Below are positions 5,982-64,000 of a stretch of 64,000 nucleotides of DNA, piece after piece. Source of the DNA: Poriferisphaera corsica (lineage in GTDB: Bacteria > Planctomycetota > Phycisphaerae > Phycisphaerales > Phycisphaeraceae); NCBI RefSeq assembly GCF_007747445.1, contig NZ_CP036425.1, positions 2,154,175-2,218,174 of the forward strand, written 5' to 3'. The position numbers and the translations under genes are program-made. The stretch's first letter is position 1, and each line of letters opens with the position of its first letter. The notes beneath the pieces are model-generated. The model was not told the origin of the DNA and ran no database searches. It was given only the letters and a program-made list of their open reading frames with translations.

Positions 5982-7931
5982 TTAAGAATCGTTTTCCGCA
6001 GCGTTTATCGCCTTAACGACCTGGTCAGCAGTGTACCAATCGCTCTTGAGAATTTCTTTCCCGTCAGGTGAATAGACGACAAGCAAAGGAATTGTGGCTC
6101 GGCCAACGCCTGTTAGCTTTGCCCAGCCTTGTTTATTATCGCTGCTTGTCAGATCAACCTTCATCGCAATGACGTTGTCCTGGTCGATTGCATTAATGAC
6201 TTTGTTAGATGCAAGGACGGTGTTCTCGAGTGTCTTACAGTTGAGGCACCATTCTGCGGTGAAGTCGAGTACGACGACGTTCCCGGAATCAAGAGCGGTT
6301 TGCAAACGATCGGGTGAGTAGTACTGCCAATCAATAGGGCCTTTTTCAGTGAGTTTTACTGCACCGAAAAGTGAGGAACTGATCGTTAAGATGCCAACAA
6401 TCGTCCAGCTAATACGTTTGATGCTGCTGGGTGTAATCTTCCATGTTTTGTAAATCACCCAGAAGCCTGCGAGGGCGATGAAGGTCATGACCGGCCACCA
6501 GTAAAGTTGTGATGGCTGTTCAAGACCGGTGGTGAATTTGCTGACCAGACCGACACCGATAAAGTATGCGGCAGCAGCGAGCATGAGTAACCCCATTACT
6601 TGTTTGATCAATTCGCTTGCAGGCCCGGTGCGAGGCATTTTCTCGACCCATTCAGGGACAGCAGATAGGACGAGATAAGGTAACGCCATGCCAAAACCTA
6701 TTGCAGTGAAAGTTGCGAGTACGGTTGGCAAACTTTGAGTCAGTGCCCACGCTGCGGCAGCGCCCATAAGTGGTGCAGTACAGGGGGTAGACAGGATTGC
6801 CGTCATGATGCCAAAGCCAAAGCTGCCGGTCGCCGTTTCTTGCTTAGGACTTATGCTGTAGACCCAATTGGGCAATCGGATTGCAAAAACACCGCACATG
6901 CCTATAGCCATGACTGCGATGAAAACACCGATGCTAAAGGTGAACCACCAGTTTTGGAAAAGGACGCTGATCGCTTTGGTTTCAGCAACAGTCGCGATGA
7001 TGCCGCCAAGGACAAGCCAGAATGCGACAACGCCAACTGACATCCAAATGCCAAGCATGAGGCAACGGAATCGATTCCCAGCGACATTGCTAAGGCTCAT
7101 GATTTTAATCGGGATGACCGGCAAAACGCATGGTGTGAGATTGAGTAAAAAGCCACCTGCCATTGCGACTAGCAGAAAGAAAATAAAACCGACACCTTGG
7201 CCGTTCAACTCAAAACTTAAACCGAAGACATCAAAGCTAACGCTTTGTTTTGTATTGATTGTGGAGGTCGCTGTTGCGCCAAATCCTGCTGGGTCAAAAT
7301 CATTAAAAAGGTTGCTATCGCTAGGTAATGTGGTTGCGACTTGCGTTTCTTGTTCTGTGTTTAATATGGTGAGTGTAAGGTCAATTGTTTTAGATGCAGG
7401 TGGCAAGCATACTTTGTCATTGCAGGTCTGATAATCAACACGAAGTTTAAGATTGTACTCGCCGGGTGTAGCGTTTTGATTAACGACGAACGGCACGTAA
7501 AAAACGGTTTCGCCTTCATATGCAGGCAGTTTGGAAGCTTTGCCTGTAAAGTAAACCGTCACGTCGTGCGCTTCGGGGTATTGAACTTGTTTGAAGTCAA
7601 CAGGGGCATTGCCATCTATTGGTTCGATAGATGTGGGGATAAGGAAACTGGCTTCTTCTGGAATCTGCTGCTTTTCAGGATTGATATGAAATTTAGGCGC
7701 CATGGTGGCAACAACTGCAATGATGCGATGATCGCCGGGTCTTGCGTTTTTATCGCTTAATGTAGCGGAGATTGTGACGGGCTCGGCGGTCAAACCTGCG
7801 CCGAGATCAAATTGTTGAGCGGTTGTTATTGTTTGAATGCTGATGACGGCTGCGAAAGTTACAGCGATAAAAAAAAACAACTTGCTTCTAAGATTCATTT
7901 CTTGATTCTCAACCATACAGCCTTCTTTCAT
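5982..7931 (-). CDS. dsbD: DsbD-like thiol:disulfide interchange protein
   Basis: A three-part reductant conduit across the inner membrane. A signal peptide (hydrophobic LFFFIAVTFAAVISI) is followed by a periplasmic DsbD-alpha-like domain with the Cys pair of TCNDKVCLPP. About eight membrane spans (roughly 240-515) carry the functional cysteines in LNLTPCVLPVIPIK and STPCTAPLMG. A C-terminal thioredoxin domain has the active site EWCLNCKTLE. The protein passes electrons from cytosolic thioredoxin to periplasmic thiols (disulfide isomerase or cytochrome c maturation). At 649 residues it is slightly longer than E. coli DsbD (565). The start is uncertain: ATG 7931 has TCTAAT 6 nt upstream, ATG 7916 has AGAAGG, and ATG 7898 gives the most compact signal peptide. 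No partner genes are adjacent. Confidence 0.9.
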   Translation of the reverse strand: MKEGCMVENQEMNLRSKLFFFIAVTFAAVISIQTITTAQQFDLGAGLTAEPVTISATLSDKNARPGDHRIIAVVATMAPKFHINPEKQQIPEEASFLIPTSIEPIDGNAPVDFKQVQYPEAHDVTVYFTGKASKLPAYEGETVFYVPFVVNQNATPGEYNLKLRVDYQTCNDKVCLPPASKTIDLTLTILNTEQETQVATTLPSDSNLFNDFDPAGFGATATSTINTKQSVSFDVFGLSFELNGQGVGFIFFLLVAMAGGFLLNLTPCVLPVIPIKIMSLSNVAGNRFRCLMLGIWMSVGVVAFWLVLGGIIATVAETKAISVLFQNWWFTFSIGVFIAVMAIGMCGVFAIRLPNWVYSISPKQETATGSFGFGIMTAILSTPCTAPLMGAAAAWALTQSLPTVLATFTAIGFGMALPYLVLSAVPEWVEKMPRTGPASELIKQVMGLLMLAAAAYFIGVGLVSKFTTGLEQPSQLYWWPVMTFIALAGFWVIYKTWKITPSSIKRISWTIVGILTISSSLFGAVKLTEKGPIDWQYYSPDRLQTALDSGNVVVLDFTAEWCLNCKTLENTVLASNKVINAIDQDNVIAMKVDLTSSDNKQGWAKLTGVGRATIPLLVVYSPDGKEILKSDWYTADQVVKAINAAENDS

Positions 7932-8200
7932 ACAACGATTAGAGCGGGTTATGTTACATCACTAACCACTTACTAGCCTGAAAATATTTCAACTAATTCG
8001 TGTCGTGTTATAGACATTAGGGATGCAAAATTATAAAGGTTAACCTTCTCTGTAAATATGAACTGCCCACGATCACTTCTATTCCGACTATATTCTCGGA
8101 ACATAAATAAAATATCGATTGAACGATTAGACGAAAATGACTTATGCACAAAATTTCAGAAAATACTTGCTAAATATGCGATAAGCGTAGTATTCTGATC
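7932..8200. other. Non-coding stretch upstream of dsbD and the candidate RNA
   Basis: An AT-rich intergenic region with no supported gene. Its right end contains the promoter-like TTGCTA (8167-8172), 18 nt, TATTCT (8191-8196) on the plus strand. Confidence 0.5.
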
Positions 8201-8505
8201 TACGGGTGTTTACGGTTTTTGCTTCGGGGGGAAGTTTATCAGTCATCCCTGTCACCTGCATTTCATTCAGGGATTCGCCCGTATTTTGGAATATTGTGCC
8301 TTACGGACTGTGTTCTATCTCAGTCTCTTAAAGGCGGTGTTTACGCTAAGTGTTTTACGGAGCGGCGTCGTGCTGCTTGTAGCAAGTATTCGTGCAATTT
8401 AATTTCAGGAAATTGCATAGGGCCAAGGCATGTGGTGTGCGTCAAAGGCGGAATCTTCAGTTCATAATATCAGCGCAAATCAGCAACACTATGAGTGTGT
8501 TTTTG
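8201..8505 (+). ncRNA. Candidate structured RNA or long regulatory leader, unassigned
   Basis: Directly after a promoter-like TTGCTA-N18-TATTCT (8167-8196) there is a run of strong, nested pairings. Hairpin I is TACGGGTG (8201-8208) with CGCCCGTA (8276-8283), enclosing ATCCCTG (8245-8251) with CAGGGAT (8268-8274). Hairpin II is GCCTT (8298-8302) with AAGGC (8331-8335), enclosing GACTG with CAGTC. Hairpin III is TGCAATTT (8393-8400) with AAATTGCA (8410-8417). The 10-mer GGTGTTTACG occurs twice (8205-8214 and 8336-8345). A weak terminator (ACACT-ATG-AGTGT-GTTTTT) ends at about 8505, some 108 nt before the response regulator. I recognise no consensus of tmRNA, RNase P RNA, SRP RNA or a common riboswitch. 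It could be a free sRNA or the 5' leader of the gene at 8614. Confidence 0.45.
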
Positions 8506-8613
8506 GGCGCGTTGTAATGTGTAAAAAGGTAATCACGTTTAGATTCATTCAACACAGTTGGTCGTTCAGAATCTCATCCACGCTAATTGATGAGTAAGAA
8601 AGGAAATTGAACA

Positions 8614-9273
8614 ATGCCAAGCCAAACTGTTTACATCGTTGACGATGACGAGGCGGTTCGCGATTCGTTAGTGATGCTTTTAACCTCCATGGGTATGGCT
8701 GCGGTACCATTCGAATCTGCAGAAGCATTTCTCGAATCCGCGCAGAAATCTCCAGATCAGCTTTCGGGTTGCTGCGTACTTGATGTACGTATGCCTGGTA
8801 TGAGCGGTATCGAAATCCAGAACAAGCTGGGTAGCTTGGGTATCAACCTGCCATGCATCATGGTCTCGGGATTCGGTGATGTGCCTTCAACCGTTGATTC
8901 TTTCAAAGCTGGTGCGGTTGATTTTCTCGAAAAACCATTCAACGAACAGCAACTGCTCGATCGTGTGCAAGCTGCTTTGTTATGGGATGCCGAGCAGCGT
9001 GCTTATACCGAAAAGCTTGCTGAAATTTCAATGAGGTATAACCGCCTGACGCCGCGAGAACGGCAAGTCATGGAGCTGGTTGTTGAGGGTAAACTCAATA
9101 AGCAAATCGCAGGTGAACTCGGGCTTTCACATAAAACCATTGAAGTTCATCGCGCTCACGTGATGGATAAGATGCAAGCGGATTCACTCGCTCATCTGGT
9201 TCGAATGGCCATGATGCTCAAACAGAAAGAATACCGCGTTTTCCATCCACCGATTCGGCCACGATTGAATTAA
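8614..9273 (+). CDS. FixJ/NarL-type response regulator
   Basis: A two-domain transcription factor. The receiver domain (1-120) has acidic residues VDDDEAVRD (9-17), phospho-acceptor D57 in VLDVRMPGMSG and the conserved Lys in FLEKPFNEQQLL. The LuxR-type helix-turn-helix (about 140-205) has LTPRERQVMELVVEGKLNKQ and SHKTIEVHRAHVMDKM. The pattern, including the VSGFGDVPSTVDSFKAGAVDF segment, is that of FixJ/TodT regulators activated by a sensor histidine kinase. No kinase gene is in the window, so the signal is unknown. The start is supported by AAAGGAA 9 nt upstream. The gene is followed by an excellent terminator and preceded by the structured region at 8201-8505, which may be its leader. Confidence 0.93.
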   Translation: MPSQTVYIVDDDEAVRDSLVMLLTSMGMAAVPFESAEAFLESAQKSPDQLSGCCVLDVRMPGMSGIEIQNKLGSLGINLPCIMVSGFGDVPSTVDSFKAGAVDFLEKPFNEQQLLDRVQAALLWDAEQRAYTEKLAEISMRYNRLTPRERQVMELVVEGKLNKQIAGELGLSHKTIEVHRAHVMDKMQADSLAHLVRMAMMLKQKEYRVFHPPIRPRLN

Positions 9274-17129: not shown

Positions 17130-17159
17130 TTGATCTTCCCACCTGTCCTGTCATATAAT
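17130..17159 (+). promoter_or_regulatory. Promoter of the fluoride-riboswitch transcript
   Basis: TTGATC (17130-17135), 18-nt spacer, TATAAT (17154-17159). The predicted start is at about 17166, roughly 10 nt before the riboswitch. The region 16910-17129 to its left holds no gene I can support. Confidence 0.75.
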
Positions 17160-17176
17160 CATGCATACAAACAATA

Positions 17177-17303
17177 GGCGATGGAGTTCGCCTTCAACCG
17201 CCCTCCCCCGATCCCCGGAAGTGATGACAACTTCTAACCTCACGCACCCTCAAACCCGCATCACCGCAAACAGAAACAGGGGGGGGACTGATGACTCCTG
17301 TTT
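17177..17303 (+). ncRNA. Fluoride riboswitch (crcB RNA motif)
   Basis: The conserved aptamer parts are all present and in order: GGCGATGGAGTTCGCC (17177-17192, P1/P2 hairpin with the GATGG core), AACCGCC (17196-17202), and CTGATGACTCCTG (17288-17300), the hallmark 3' segment. The distal helix is formed by CCTCCCCC (17202-17209) with the run of eight G (17279-17286). The loop between them is about 69 nt, much longer than in most members. Fluoride binding in this class is established for crcB-motif RNAs, which control CrcB/Fluc and CLC-F exporters; the downstream gene is a CLC-F-type transporter, which confirms the assignment. A second 8-bp hairpin GCGATCTT/AAGATCGC (17309-17316 with 17342-17349) follows before the start codon. 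Confidence 0.93.
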
Positions 17304-17366
17304 AATCCGCGATCTTTCTGCGCCTGATTCATTTCATTCGCAAGATCGCCTGAATAGGTGTCATTC

Positions 17367-55220: not shown

Positions 55221-55324
55221 GTAAAATTGTTCCCTTACATTTATAACTTACCCGGCAACGGCAACTTACCGCTGACAACATTCGGGTCGCCCGTCGGGTA
55301 TGACGAGCCTTGCCTGCAGTCAGG

Positions 55325-55380
55325 TTGATACAACACGTATCAATAAATCCAGCTGCAAATCAGTTGAATCGGACATTATA
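55325..55380 (-). promoter_or_regulatory. rpsA promoter and leader hairpin
   Basis: TATAAT on the minus strand at 55375-55380 with a weak TGGCAA 16 nt upstream; the predicted start is at about 55368, giving a leader of roughly 148 nt. Within it TTGATAC-GTGTT-GTATCAA (55325-55343) is a perfect 7-bp hairpin, followed by CCTG-ACTG-CAGG. Confidence 0.6.
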
Positions 55381-55475
55381 CACCCCTTCGTCCAGCTTGC
55401 CAGCCGATGAGGGGGGTTAATGAAATTTATATCGTCTTTATTTTCAACGAATTGTACGATTGTCTGTCGTTTGTA

Positions 55476-59740: not shown

Positions 59741-61276
59741 ATGCGAATTGATGCAGGACAACATATGCGGTTGAGTCAGCAGATGAAGCTGGCGCCGCGG
59801 ATGATTCAGAGCATGGAAATCCTGCAGATGACGCAGCAGGCGCTTGAGGAGCGGATTGAGCAAGAGCTTGCGAATAATCCGACGTTAGAGCTGCAGGAGC
59901 CGGGGAGTGATGAGAAGCAGATTGCGTCTGAGTTGAAGCAAGAGGAGAGGGATTCGAGAGAGGGTGAGCGGGAGCTGTATGTTTCGGATGATGCGGAAGC
60001 GAAGAACACAGGGGATGATTTTGAGCGGCTGAATAATATCTCGGAAGAGTATGGGGATTCGTGGGCAGCGAATACAACGGGGACGGGTGAAAAGATTGAT
60101 TTTCAGCAGCGGGCGGCGAAAGGAACAGGGGAACGTGATGCAAAGATTGATGCGATGGCGAACACGGCGGCGCGTGGCGCTTCGTTGTATGAGCAGTTGA
60201 TTGATCAATGGCGGATGGTTGAGTTGCCTGAAGAAGAAATTCTGATGGGCGTGTACTTGATCGGGTTTGTGGATGGTGATGGATATCTGCGGACGGAAGA
60301 TTCGGTGCTGCTGGATCAGGCGCCGGGGGATCTGAAGGATGAGAAGCTTCTGGAAGGAACGATTTATGCGCTGCAACGAACGCTTGAGCCAACAGGGTTG
60401 TGTGCGCGGGATATTCGGGAATGCTTTTTGTTGCAGATTGATGCGAAGATGCGGAATGAGGGTGTGGATCTGGCGGTAGAGCGATTGCTGGTGAATGAGT
60501 ATTTGAAGGAGATTGAGGGGAATAAGCTGCCGATGATCGCGAAGAAGACGGGGCTGGAAATGGAGGATATTACGGCGGCGATTGCGAAGTTGCGACAGTT
60601 CACGCCACATCCAGGAAGATTGCTGGCAGATGAGAGTCCGCAGCGAATTACGCCTGATGCGATCGTTGATTTTATTGAGGACGAGGATTGTTATGTGGCT
60701 AGGCTGGCGAGCGAGCGGTTGCCGCAGCTTCAGATTAGCGAGTCGTATGCGGAGATGGCAAAAGACAAAGGGGTAGAAAAGAAAACGAGAGATTTTATCA
60801 ATAACAATATTCGGTCTGCGAGCTGGATTATTGATGCGGTGCATCAACGGAGTTCGACGTTGTTGCGCGTTGTGAATGTGGTTCTGAATGCACAGCGTGA
60901 GTTTTTTGATGTAGGTGAGCAGGCATTGAAGCCGCTACCGATGACGGTGGTAGCGGATCAGTTGGGGATTCATGTCGCGACGGTGAGTCGTGCTGTGAAT
61001 GAGAAGTATATTCAGACGCCGCGCGGGATTTATCCGCTACGGATGTTTTTCTCGGGTGGCACGGAGACTGGTGATGGTGAATCGGTGAGTTGGAGTGCGG
61101 TACAGGCGAAGTTGAAAGAGATTATTGATGGCGAGAACAAGATGAAGCCGTTGAGTGATGATTCTCTGGTTGAGGCGCTAAAGAATGCGGGGATTGATAT
61201 CGCCAGAAGAACGGTTGCGAAGTACCGGAAGCAGATGAATATTGGTACGGCACGTCAGCGAAAGCAATTTGGGTAA
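59741..61276 (+). CDS. rpoN: RNA polymerase sigma-54 factor
   Basis: The alternative sigma factor for enhancer-dependent -24/-12 promoters. Region I is MRLSQQMKLAPRMIQSMEIL QMTQQ with its glutamine-rich pattern; the core-binding domain follows an acidic linker (about 60-140; EERDSREGEREL). The C-terminal part has an HTH (VVADQLGIHVATVSRAVNEK) and the RpoN box ARRTVAKYRKQMNIG. About 511 residues. The start is uncertain: ATG 59741 (GAGGA 12 nt upstream), ATG 59714 (AGG 3 nt upstream) and GTG 59699 are in frame. No enhancer-binding activator is in the window. It is followed after 149 nt by the TetR gene. Confidence 0.96.
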   Translation: MRIDAGQHMRLSQQMKLAPRMIQSMEILQMTQQALEERIEQELANNPTLELQEPGSDEKQIASELKQEERDSREGERELYVSDDAEAKNTGDDFERLNNISEEYGDSWAANTTGTGEKIDFQQRAAKGTGERDAKIDAMANTAARGASLYEQLIDQWRMVELPEEEILMGVYLIGFVDGDGYLRTEDSVLLDQAPGDLKDEKLLEGTIYALQRTLEPTGLCARDIRECFLLQIDAKMRNEGVDLAVERLLVNEYLKEIEGNKLPMIAKKTGLEMEDITAAIAKLRQFTPHPGRLLADESPQRITPDAIVDFIEDEDCYVARLASERLPQLQISESYAEMAKDKGVEKKTRDFINNNIRSASWIIDAVHQRSSTLLRVVNVVLNAQREFFDVGEQALKPLPMTVVADQLGIHVATVSRAVNEKYIQTPRGIYPLRMFFSGGTETGDGESVSWSAVQAKLKEIIDGENKMKPLSDDSLVEALKNAGIDIARRTVAKYRKQMNIGTARQRKQFG

Positions 61277-61365
61277 TTGACGCTGAAACTGAGAGGCGTG
61301 ATAGGATTGAGGGGAGATAGATTACCTGTTTTAACTGTTTCCAGAAAATGAGTTTGGGGGTAGAG

Positions 61366-61379
61366 ACTGTCTTGACAGT
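61366..61379 (+). promoter_or_regulatory. Palindrome over the tetR promoter, probable operator
   Basis: ACTGTC-TT-GACAGT, 6-bp arms, overlapping a -35-like TTGACA at 61372-61377. It lies 46-59 nt before the TetR-family start codon, the usual place for an autoregulatory operator. A perfect AAGGAGGTG ribosome-binding site follows 5 nt before the ATG. Confidence 0.6.
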
Positions 61380-61425
61380 TGACGTGGTAGCGTAGAGACT
61401 AGATGTGTTCACAAGGAGGTGAACT

Positions 61426-62211
61426 ATGACACAAATGGCTGATGGAATAGCCTCTATGAATGATGGATTTGAAGTCACTTCCAGGTTACCGCTGGATTAT
61501 GTCAATCAGAACAGCGGGCGTGTACAGCAAACGAAGGTACCGGCGAACTTGAGTCGAGAGCAAATACTCGATGCAACGTTGTCGTGTCTGCTTGAGTCCG
61601 GGTATGACGGGACAACGATTAGAAAGATCGCGAAGCGATTGGACTGTGCGGTTGGTTCGATTTATCGGTATTTCAAGGATAAACGTGAGCTACTGGATGC
61701 GGTATTGCAGCGCCGGTTTGAGCCGGTGCTGGATCAGTTGGAGGGACATCATACGGTTCGACCGTCGGTTGGGATGTATGTGAAGATTGCGCTTGAGGAT
61801 TTGTCGTTGTACCAGTTGATGTTCTGGATTGCGATGGACGCTCGAAGGGATCGTGCTGAAGCAGTGGCTGATACTGGCAGAATGGGTGTGCCACGGGTGC
61901 TGGATGAGATTATTGAGGCGTGGGGAGGACGTTTTACGCAAGAAGATTTAGTGGAAGGGTTCTGGGCGGGGTTACACGGACATATTATGGTGAGTGGTTC
62001 GGTGGATGATGTATTGGCGAAGATGTCGTTTCCAAGCGAGAAGCATGTGGCGAGTTCGCCGATGCCCCCTGCCCCGAGATTGACACCTGTGATTGTGCAG
62101 TCATCGCCGCCGCCGCCGCGGATGAATCGTGGTAGTGAGAAAAGTGGTGCACCTGAGCCTCGTTTTGTCGATGCAAGGGAACGGGACGAGGAAGATGTGA
62201 CGCTGTTGTAA
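61426..62211 (+). CDS. TetR-family transcriptional regulator with proline-rich tail
   Basis: 261 residues. The N-terminal HTH is at about 45-95: SREQILDATLSCLLESGYDG, TIRKIAKRLDCAVGSIYRYF, KDKRELLDAVLQRRF. The ligand-binding part is helical and ends at about 200; a further 55-60 residues are Pro/Ser/Arg-rich (SSPMPPAPRLTPVIV; SSPPPPRMNRGSEKSG; REREDV-like end), unusual for TetR proteins. The DNA-binding helix and the palindrome at 61366 suggest autorepression. The regulated genes and ligand are unknown. ispE starts 67 nt downstream in the same direction. Confidence 0.9.
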   Translation: MTQMADGIASMNDGFEVTSRLPLDYVNQNSGRVQQTKVPANLSREQILDATLSCLLESGYDGTTIRKIAKRLDCAVGSIYRYFKDKRELLDAVLQRRFEPVLDQLEGHHTVRPSVGMYVKIALEDLSLYQLMFWIAMDARRDRAEAVADTGRMGVPRVLDEIIEAWGGRFTQEDLVEGFWAGLHGHIMVSGSVDDVLAKMSFPSEKHVASSPMPPAPRLTPVIVQSSPPPPRMNRGSEKSGAPEPRFVDARERDEEDVTLL

Positions 62212-62277
62212 TACCTGAGTTGTGAAGCAGTGGGAAGTGGATATCAATCATGTGGGGTGAGAAGCCGGAGCAAGCTG

Positions 62278-63213
62278 ATGACAAGCAGATTGACGCATGT
62301 TGAGCCATATGCTGAGGCGGAGATGTTGTGCCCTGCGAAAGTAAATTTGGCGTTGTCGGTTGGCGCGGCACAGGAGAATGGTTATCACCCGATTGTAAGC
62401 TGGATGGTTGCGGTGGATTTTTGGGATCAGTTATCGGTGCAGTGTATCGAGGGGATTGAGGATCGGTACCACATTAGTTTCTCTGAGGATGCTTCGGTAC
62501 GACAGGCGGTGGACTGGGATGTTGAGAAAGATCTAGTTTATAAGGCGCATCAGTTGATGAAACGGCGGGTTGAAAAGAAGATACCGCCGGTTGAGGTGAC
62601 TCTTAAAAAATATATTCCGGCGGGTGCTGGATTGGGAGGCGGATCGAGTGATGCGGCTGGCATGCTGGTGGGACTAAATGAACTGTTTGAACTGGGGATT
62701 GGGGATGACGATTTGATTGCGATGGGCGCAGAATTAGGGTGCGATGTGGGGTTTGCTGTATCAGCATTTTTGGGGAAGCCGAGCGCGATGGCGACTGGGT
62801 ATGGGGAAGTGATTGAGGCGATGACGCATTTGGAGCCTGTGCATTTAGCGCTGATTATGCCGAATGTTGGGTGCGCGACGGCAGAGGTGTATAACGCATT
62901 TGATGAAATGTCTGAAGACCATAAAGATGTAGATCACGATGGGGTTTGGTCGCTGATTAAGGGTGGAAAATTGAAGGCGGATGGGCCATTCAATGATTTG
63001 GCAGAAGCGGCAGAGAAGGTACAGCCGAGATTGGGTGAGTTGAGAGGCCGGATTTACGAAGCGGTGCACAAACCAGTCCATGTGACAGGTTCGGGGTCAG
63101 CAATGTTTGTGATCGGTGAATCGAAAGAAGATGCCCGTAAGATGATGGATATTATTGTCGAGAGGTGTGATGTAGCTTGTATTGATGTGCAAACGCTGAA
63201 AATTAATCCGTAG
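62278..63213 (+). CDS. ispE: 4-diphosphocytidyl-2-C-methyl-D-erythritol kinase
   Basis: A GHMP-family kinase of the MEP pathway for isoprenoid precursors. 311 residues from ATG 62278 (MTSRLTHVEPYAEAEMLCPA), GGAG 7 nt upstream; an in-frame GTG 62230 is not needed. Motifs: LCPAKVNLALSVG, the ATP-binding glycine-rich PAGAGLGGGSSDAAGML (about 122-138), MGAELGCDVGFAVSAF and the C-terminal VHVTGSGSAMFVIGE. The position after tetR may be incidental. It is followed by a terminator overlapping the convergent gene's stop codon. Confidence 0.94.
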   Translation: MTSRLTHVEPYAEAEMLCPAKVNLALSVGAAQENGYHPIVSWMVAVDFWDQLSVQCIEGIEDRYHISFSEDASVRQAVDWDVEKDLVYKAHQLMKRRVEKKIPPVEVTLKKYIPAGAGLGGGSSDAAGMLVGLNELFELGIGDDDLIAMGAELGCDVGFAVSAFLGKPSAMATGYGEVIEAMTHLEPVHLALIMPNVGCATAEVYNAFDEMSEDHKDVDHDGVWSLIKGGKLKADGPFNDLAEAAEKVQPRLGELRGRIYEAVHKPVHVTGSGSAMFVIGESKEDARKMMDIIVERCDVACIDVQTLKINP

Positions 63214-63240
63214 ATTAAAGAATGAAAATTGAAATATTAG

Positions 63241-63267
63241 AACGGCGCTTTGTGCGTCGTTTTTTTA
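63241..63267 (+). terminator. Terminator of ispE
   Basis: AACGGCGC (63241-63248), TTTGT, GCGTCGTT (63254-63261) with one G-T pair, then a T run ending at 63267, which overlaps the stop codon of the convergent TPR gene. Confidence 0.85.
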
Positions 63268-64000
63268 TTGTTCGAGTGGGGTGAATTGAAGACGGCTGTT
63301 GACTAACTCAAGTTGATTGGAAGTGAGTTGCTTACCGGGATCAAGATAGAGTTGATCGTTGAGCGAAAGTATGTGCCGATAGATATTTTGTGCTTCAGTA
63401 CGATCGCCAAGTTGGTATTGGATATCGGCGAGTTTGAGGTAATCGGGCAGACTGTAGGGGCTACGATTGACGGCTTCTGTTGCGGGGTGGAGCGAGTCAT
63501 TTAATGCGTTTGGCAAGAGGTTCTCACGGTTGGCGAGTTCATAAAGTTGGATGAGGTAGCGGTAGGGCGCGGCGCCGCCGGGGGCGTGAATGATGTAGTT
63601 TTGAGCGTTATTAATGGCCTGATTTAGATATTTGATTGCGGATGGTTTGTTGTTACGTTGCGTATAGAGGAGGACAATATTGCTGCGGACGAGGATGCGG
63701 GATTTTTGTGCGGTGTTAGCGGTGGGCTGTTCGGCGGCAGCCTTGTCGAGCAGATCGAGTGCGCGTGAGTAACTGCGCTGATGTAGGGCTGATTCTGCGT
63801 TTACAAGGAGGGTTTGGTATTGATTGATGGGACGGGTGATCAGGGTGAAGGTTGCGATTGCGGTTATTGCGAGAAGTATGGTGGTGATAAGGGCAATGCG
63901 CGTATTAGACTTGGGCCGCGAGGCTTTGGATGGTTTGATGGTTGAGGCGAATGCGGCGGTGATGATGAGCCAGGCGATCGGAGCTGAGGTGAATTGGAAA
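63265..64000 (-). CDS. Membrane protein with TPR-like C-terminus, 5'-truncated by the window edge
   Basis: Reading the minus strand from the right edge gives an open frame of at least 244 codons that ends at 63265; the short 83-residue frame starting at a TTG (63516) is only its 3' end. The visible part has two membrane helices (FTSAPIAWLIITAAFASTI; ALITTILLAITAIATFTLI) separated by a basic loop (KPSKASRPKSNTR), and then TPR-like pairs: LLVNAESALHQRSYSRALDL, NNKPSAIKYLNQAINNAQNY and LKLADIQYQLGDRTEAQNIY. This layout is common in the C-terminal half of O-antigen ligase/Wzy-like proteins of planctomycetes, but only the tail is present, so the identity is uncertain. Confidence 0.7.
   Translation of the reverse strand, partial: FQFTSAPIAWLIITAAFASTIKPSKASRPKSNTRIALITTILLAITAIATFTLITRPINQYQTLLVNAESALHQRSYSRALDLLDKAAAEQPTANTAQKSRILVRSNIVLLYTQRNNKPSAIKYLNQAINNAQNYIIHAPGGAAPYRYLIQLYELANRENLLPNALNDSLHPATEAVNRSPYSLPDYLKLADIQYQLGDRTEAQNIYRHILSLNDQLYLDPGKQLTSNQLELVNSRLQFTPLEQ

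Follow-up and report, generated by a model that had tools for sequence, protein, structure and literature searches.

Bacterial mRNAs can be stabilised by 5'-terminal stem-loops of the ompA/papA type, and 5'-terminal helices can protect E. coli mRNAs, as Emory and also Bouvet and Belasco are said to have found in 1992. Structured leaders or sRNAs that are confined to one genus are common in bacteria. For B. subtilis, a passage of a review gives a requirement of RppH for at least two unpaired 5' nucleotides (PMC3997798). The locus described here lies in a 64,000-nucleotide stretch of Poriferisphaera corsica DNA (the window, genome positions 2154175-2218174), in which a promoter precedes a small folded RNA that a congener has kept. 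Together, these probably make up the beginning of a long control region for a response regulator gene downstream. In the open-access literature, few papers touching RNA regulation in Phycisphaerae were found, and a search of an open-access library with limited terms returned no title or abstract naming the element.

The locus, its promoter and its counterpart in a congener

The intergenic region is flanked upstream by a divergent dsbD-like gene (5982-7931, minus strand) and downstream by a gene for a FixJ/LuxR-type response regulator (8614-9273, plus strand) with a receiver domain (PF00072) and a GerE domain (PF00196); the next gene after the regulator is fliM (all Pfam assignments). Conservation of the element was judged from two sequences, namely those of P. 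corsica and of one congener, ZRK32, which is given as a strain of P. heterotrophicis with the record CP066225 in a section of its description (PMC10945688). The order dsbD, FixJ-type regulator and fliM around the intergenic region is common to both genomes, and the regulator gene, which is probably the downstream gene of the putative leader, is 95% identical to its ZRK32 counterpart. At 28 other loci of the family, viewed over at most 1.5 kb per side and in some cases clipped at contig ends, fliM was never found beside the regulator homologue.

Positions 8137-8283 (block A) match ZRK32 at the equivalent place with 82% identity over 147 columns (blastn, E about 1e-35), and this alignment ends at 8283, the final base of the outer helix described below. 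As background we used the 28 stretches of at least 80 bp in the window that lie between ORFs of at least 110 amino acids, a rough set in which some members are probably unrecognised coding DNA. Block A ranked fourth of these 28 by its ZRK32 match score, and it therefore stands above the local conservation background. The stretches that outscored it were 1-637 at the window edge (match 1-372), the leader of a gene for an S1-domain protein, and a tRNA stretch.

The promoter region (8137-8199, plus strand) consists of an A/T-rich tract upstream, TTGCTA at 8167-8172, an 18-nt spacer with a conserved TGCGATAAGC, and TATTCT at 8191-8196, and 56 of its 63 positions (89%) are the same in ZRK32. An earlier reading of this DNA from its letters alone (the sequence-only reading) had named TTGCTA-N18-TATTCT, which is indeed present with that spacer; its claim that the -10 box ends exactly at the start of the helix was wrong, as the box ends 4 nt ahead of it. 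The two boxes share 8 of 12 letters with the consensus (hand count), which is below the scanner threshold of 9, and the promoter scan reported no promoter at 8167-8196. A single exact copy of TTGCTAAANNTGCGATAAGC was found in each of the two Poriferisphaera genomes, and the 8 other places listed carry 3 mismatches. Transcription from this promoter would begin at about 8202. Such a start lies 6-7 nt past the -10 box and would leave at most about one base between the 5' end of the RNA and the outer helix.

Other conserved stretches were seen in the window. The stretch 55221-55475 (minus strand) matches ZRK32 with 86% identity across 221 columns, a higher conservation than that of block A. It has no Rfam match and lies between a GATase_5 gene, presumably PurQ-like, and a gene for a ribosomal protein S1-like product in which Pfam finds six S1 domains. 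We regard it as a candidate S1 mRNA leader. A fluoride riboswitch (RF01734, 45.1 bits) lies at 17168-17307 (plus strand), with a promoter-like TTGATC-18-TATAAT upstream of it at 17130-17159; further upstream, an isolated conserved block at 16982-17069 matches ZRK32 with 81% identity over 89 columns.

Folding and conservation across the putative leader region

Within the 5' structured element (8201-8283, plus strand), an outer helix formed by TACGGGTG (8201-8208) and CGCCCGTA (8276-8283), including one T-G pair, encloses a hairpin in which ATCCCTG (8245-8251) pairs with CAGGGAT (8268-8274) around a 16-nt loop. The 8-bp outer helix and the enclosed 7-bp helix that had been claimed are thus both in the P. 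corsica sequence. The core shared by the two species consists of the 6-bp helices TACGGG/CCCGTA and TCCCTG/CAGGGA, which are unchanged, and some of the P. corsica pairs beyond this 6+6 core are lost in ZRK32. Across the transcribed part (8200-8283), 65 of 84 positions (77%) are the same in both species, and in the loop of the inner hairpin 14 of 16 are kept. Changes within 8201-8283 affect 3 of 30 helix positions, as defined in P. corsica, versus 16 of 53 positions elsewhere (one-sided Fisher p 0.03). The shared pairs, 12 in block A and 15 in the second block described below, are invariant between the two species and no compensatory change was seen. Covariation therefore neither supports nor refutes the helices. 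A small GCTTC hairpin that was also predicted within block A is mismatched in ZRK32, as read by eye, and is hence not claimed.

The folding energy of the region is unremarkable and no better than that of shuffled sequences. For 8202-8290 the z value was -0.87, with 33 of 200 shuffles equally good, for 8202-8620 it was 0.04 (52 of 100 shuffles equally good), and for the ZRK32 element it was -0.73. The alifold energy of block A was matched in 56 of 1000 cases when columns were shuffled only within their conservation class and in 34 of 1000 when all columns were shuffled, and its structure conservation index of 0.69 was reached by 139 of 1000 shuffles. An 8-bp helix from base 1 around a 7-bp helix occurred in 20 of 20,000 mononucleotide shuffles, in a test that was framed post hoc; judged from the two sequences, conservation is better evidence for the element than this rarity. 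The mean pair probability of the outer helix was 0.94-0.97 in P. corsica at all transcript lengths, and in ZRK32 it was 0.97, 0.74, 0.06, 0.29, 0.01 and 0.79 at 83, 100, 150, 200, 300 and 412 nt, respectively. This dependence on length in ZRK32 weakens the reading of the helix as a simple stabiliser, or hints at competing folds.

A second conserved block, the start-region structure at 8554-8625 (plus strand; block B), was absent from the sequence-only reading. Its helices, TTGGT (8558-8562) with GCCAA (8616-8620), GTTC (8564-8567) with GAAC (8609-8612) and CTCATC (8573-8578) with GATGAG (8589-8594), are found in both species. The Shine-Dalgarno-like AAAGGAAA (8599-8606) lies within an internal loop, and the start codon ATG at 8614 is located beside the outermost helix with its G inside it. 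Changed columns number 0 of 30 among paired and 10 of 36 among unpaired positions inside the structure (gaps counted), a comparison that leans toward structure because the structure was chosen on both sequences and the region is partly coding. The alifold energy of block B was reached by 34 of 1000 shuffles. The predicted unpaired probabilities are 0.54-0.87 for the Shine-Dalgarno sequence and 0.55-0.80 for the AUG, so that a simple occlusion of the start region is not shown by these values. We rejected a pairing of block A with block B as a switch, since 492 of 500 and 483 of 500 block B shuffles pair at least as well; the best predicted duplexes have 13 pairs in common, of 38 and 27.

The two blocks are separated by a linker of about 270 nt (8284-8553, plus strand) that is not conserved. 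No ZRK32 match was found by blastn within 8284-8546, and the linker's sequence words match the ZRK32 leader at levels equal to, or barely above, those of shuffles. Several features that the sequence-only reading had assigned to the RNA lie here. The two-tier hairpin GCCTT/AAGGC (about 8298-8335) and the hairpin of TGCAATTT (8393-8400) with AAATTGCA (8410-8417) exist in the sequence, as do the two copies of the 10-mer GGTGTTTACG at 8205 and 8336, with both hairpins and the second 10-mer copy falling in the unconserved linker. The first copy itself differs from ZRK32 at 4 of 10 positions, and the best match to the 10-mer in the ZRK32 leader is 8 of 10 versus a shuffle mean of 7.1. The terminator-like hairpin at 8486-8505 has a 4-bp stem as read by eye, was not detected in the terminator scan and lies at an unconserved site. 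A structured RNA of about 300 nt ending near 8505 found no support either, as ZRK32 shows no conservation from 8284 to about 8546. Going by the sequence comparison, the hairpins outside the conserved blocks look like chance. The linker also takes part in a perfect 11-nt inverted repeat (8162-8172 and 8380-8390) that links it to the -35 region, and at 8407-8426 it holds an 80% look-alike of the start region of the regulator gene. The counterparts of these two features in ZRK32 are no better than shuffles (7 of 11 versus a shuffle mean of 7.7, and 11 of 20 versus 11.4).

Distribution and RNA family searches

An Rfam 15 search of the region was empty at gathering scores, and for 8100-8640 also down to E 5, which agrees with the earlier statement that no RNA family could be recognised. 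In the ZRK32 region there was one sub-threshold match, nuoG, with 13.9 bits against a gathering score of 33, and it lies outside block A. The suggestion of a 6S-like RNA fared poorly: neither genome has an RF00013 match at E 0.001, with 5 of 14 control genomes giving a match to this model, and the outer helix closes after 83 nt. For Thermogutta, too, a planctomycete genome paper reports no 6S homologue, and it refers to two relatives that lack one (PMC5673643). Since SRP RNA and tmRNA were found elsewhere in both genomes, the element cannot be explained as an overlooked copy of either.

A DNA search gave matches in 2 of 41 genomes, both Poriferisphaera. With the block A covariance model, 2 of 301 genomes of the order, again both Poriferisphaera, were matched at E 0.01; searches over more than 40 genomes used stricter filters with which weak matches may be lost. 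At E 1, 3 of 51 genomes of the family were matched by this model, and we attribute the third match (20 bits, E 0.09) to chance, as it overlaps the 3' end of a 178-amino-acid ORF on the opposite strand and fits the model poorly. The block B model matched 2 of 51 family genomes, both Poriferisphaera, and neither model gave a match at the 28 other family loci around regulator homologues (at most 1.5 kb per side, some clipped). A relaxed hairpin pattern was found at 19 places. Apart from ZRK32, the block A model scores 9 of these at E 10 or better, in 8 cases through the hairpin demanded by the pattern alone and in 1 (9.5 bits) elsewhere. A plasmid search gave no match to the element, and neither did a scan of genome contigs with a 21-mer from which ZRK32 differs; these contigs possibly did not include the P. 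corsica genome. On these searches, the element is known from one genus, i.e. from two genomes, and its position upstream of the regulator is conserved in both.

A proposed leader of the regulator mRNA and its alternatives

We tentatively favour, at a confidence just short of even, a 5' leader of about 410 nt on the FixJ-type regulator transcript, which would carry a helix at its 5' terminus and fold again in the start region. The first 83 nt or so would form the outer helix, at most about one base away from the 5' terminus, and the enclosed hairpin with its conserved 16-nt loop; the final 60 nt or so would fold around the ribosome-binding site and the start codon. Most likely, the base-paired 5' end would shield the mRNA against 5'-end-dependent decay, the loop, whose conservation hints at a partner, would offer a protein or an RNA a binding site, and the structured start region would set translation of the regulator. 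We infer the transcription start, the read-through into the gene and these functions. This leader is supported by synteny, by the 82% identity and its end at 8283, by the smaller number of changes in the helices, by the pairs kept in block B, by the similar distance from the outer helix to the ATG in the two species (413 and 420 nt, despite a diverged middle), and by the lack of a terminator. It is weakened by the restriction to two sequences, the weak folding z values, the marginal alifold results, the length dependence in ZRK32, the higher conservation of the promoter part than of the transcribed part, the mostly unpaired prediction for the Shine-Dalgarno sequence and AUG, and the lack of a special affinity between blocks A and B.

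The scan found no plus-strand terminator between block A and the regulator gene in either species. Such a site is expected by chance with a mean of 0.8 in about 800 bases of shuffled sequence, and the shuffles mostly give none too. The terminator survey covered positions 1-60000 of the window, with 60001-64000 outside the scan, and listed 10 hairpins of 8 or more pairs that include 5 or more G-C pairs. Seven of these (2166, 12316, 14498, 36336, 44822, 47015 and 53239) lie at most 100 nt downstream of the end of an ORF on the same strand, as matched by eye; of the other three, two are inside ORFs and one is the reverse reading of 36336. The total scan counts of 25, 24 and 31 are only somewhat above the roughly 20 seen in each set of shuffles. 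P. corsica thus seems to use ordinary terminators and, as none was found here, read-through and a leader of about 410 nt are favoured. The absence of a terminator is not strong evidence, because such a site is expected only about 0.8 times in so short a stretch.

As the main rival, the block could be an independent sRNA gene. Its conserved promoter would then give an RNA of about 85 nt or a little longer, with a conserved loop as its means of acting in trans and a 3' end made by processing or by Rho, and a separate promoter would serve the regulator. As expected of a discrete gene, conservation sets in at the promoter and goes no further than the outer helix, the loop is 14/16 identical and the linker behind it is unconserved. 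However, no terminator was found after the element in either species, and block B shows by eye no promoter with consistent spacing. We consider an sRNA unlikely, if well worth keeping in mind. Alternatively, selection may act on the DNA only, on a promoter with its upstream A/T tract and on a site for an activator or a repressor that reaches past the start, which would make the helices incidental. The greater conservation of the promoter half (56/63 versus 65/84), the lack of covariation and a folding energy not above shuffles are in line with this. Yet conservation continues for 83 nt past the predicted start, stops at the pair that closes the helix and is higher in helix positions, and we find such selection rather doubtful.

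A short peptide gene appears very improbable. A 15-codon plus-strand ORF (8137-8184) does have equal length and the same stop in both species, and the minus-strand reading is partly common to them, its frames having a similar end of about 23 residues. All 4 changed codons of the plus-strand ORF alter the residue and none is silent (hand count on the alignment), the ORF lies upstream of the predicted start site, and a 1-nt indel between the species disrupts the reading frames across 8200-8283. A genus-specific sensory leader, in which the loop of the 5' domain would bind a ligand, a protein or an sRNA and control the start region across the linker of about 270 nt, would be a new RNA class; we regard it as improbable. 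If true, it would tie a signal to a flagellum-linked regulator, next to fliM, in Planctomycetota.

The sequence-only reading had suggested a structured RNA with its own promoter and of no known family, which would be a new sRNA, a 6S-like RNA or a regulatory leader for the response regulator. The first part is supported for the initial 83 nt or so, with their conserved promoter region, two invariant helices and no Rfam match, but not beyond. Of the three suggestions, the regulatory leader is the best supported, by the conserved structure at the start codon and the lack of a terminator in between. If real, the 410-nt leader would be specific to this lineage and would govern a response regulator encoded next to a gene of the flagellar motor.

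Compared with known systems, the element is like 6S RNA (RF00013) in that it may be a noncoding RNA transcribed from a promoter of its own, but no match to that model was found in either genome and its helix closes after 83 nt. It shares with riboswitch-type leaders a promoter-proximal conserved domain in a long leader and a second structure near the ribosome-binding site; unlike these, it has no Rfam match, a linker of about 270 nt that is unconserved, an occurrence in one genus and no sign of pairing between its domains. From stabilising stem-loops of the ompA/papA type it differs in that its helix lies about 330 nt upstream of the start codon and contains a further hairpin whose loop is conserved, and in that its start site is predicted only; it resembles them in that its helix would start at the predicted 5' end or about one base from it.
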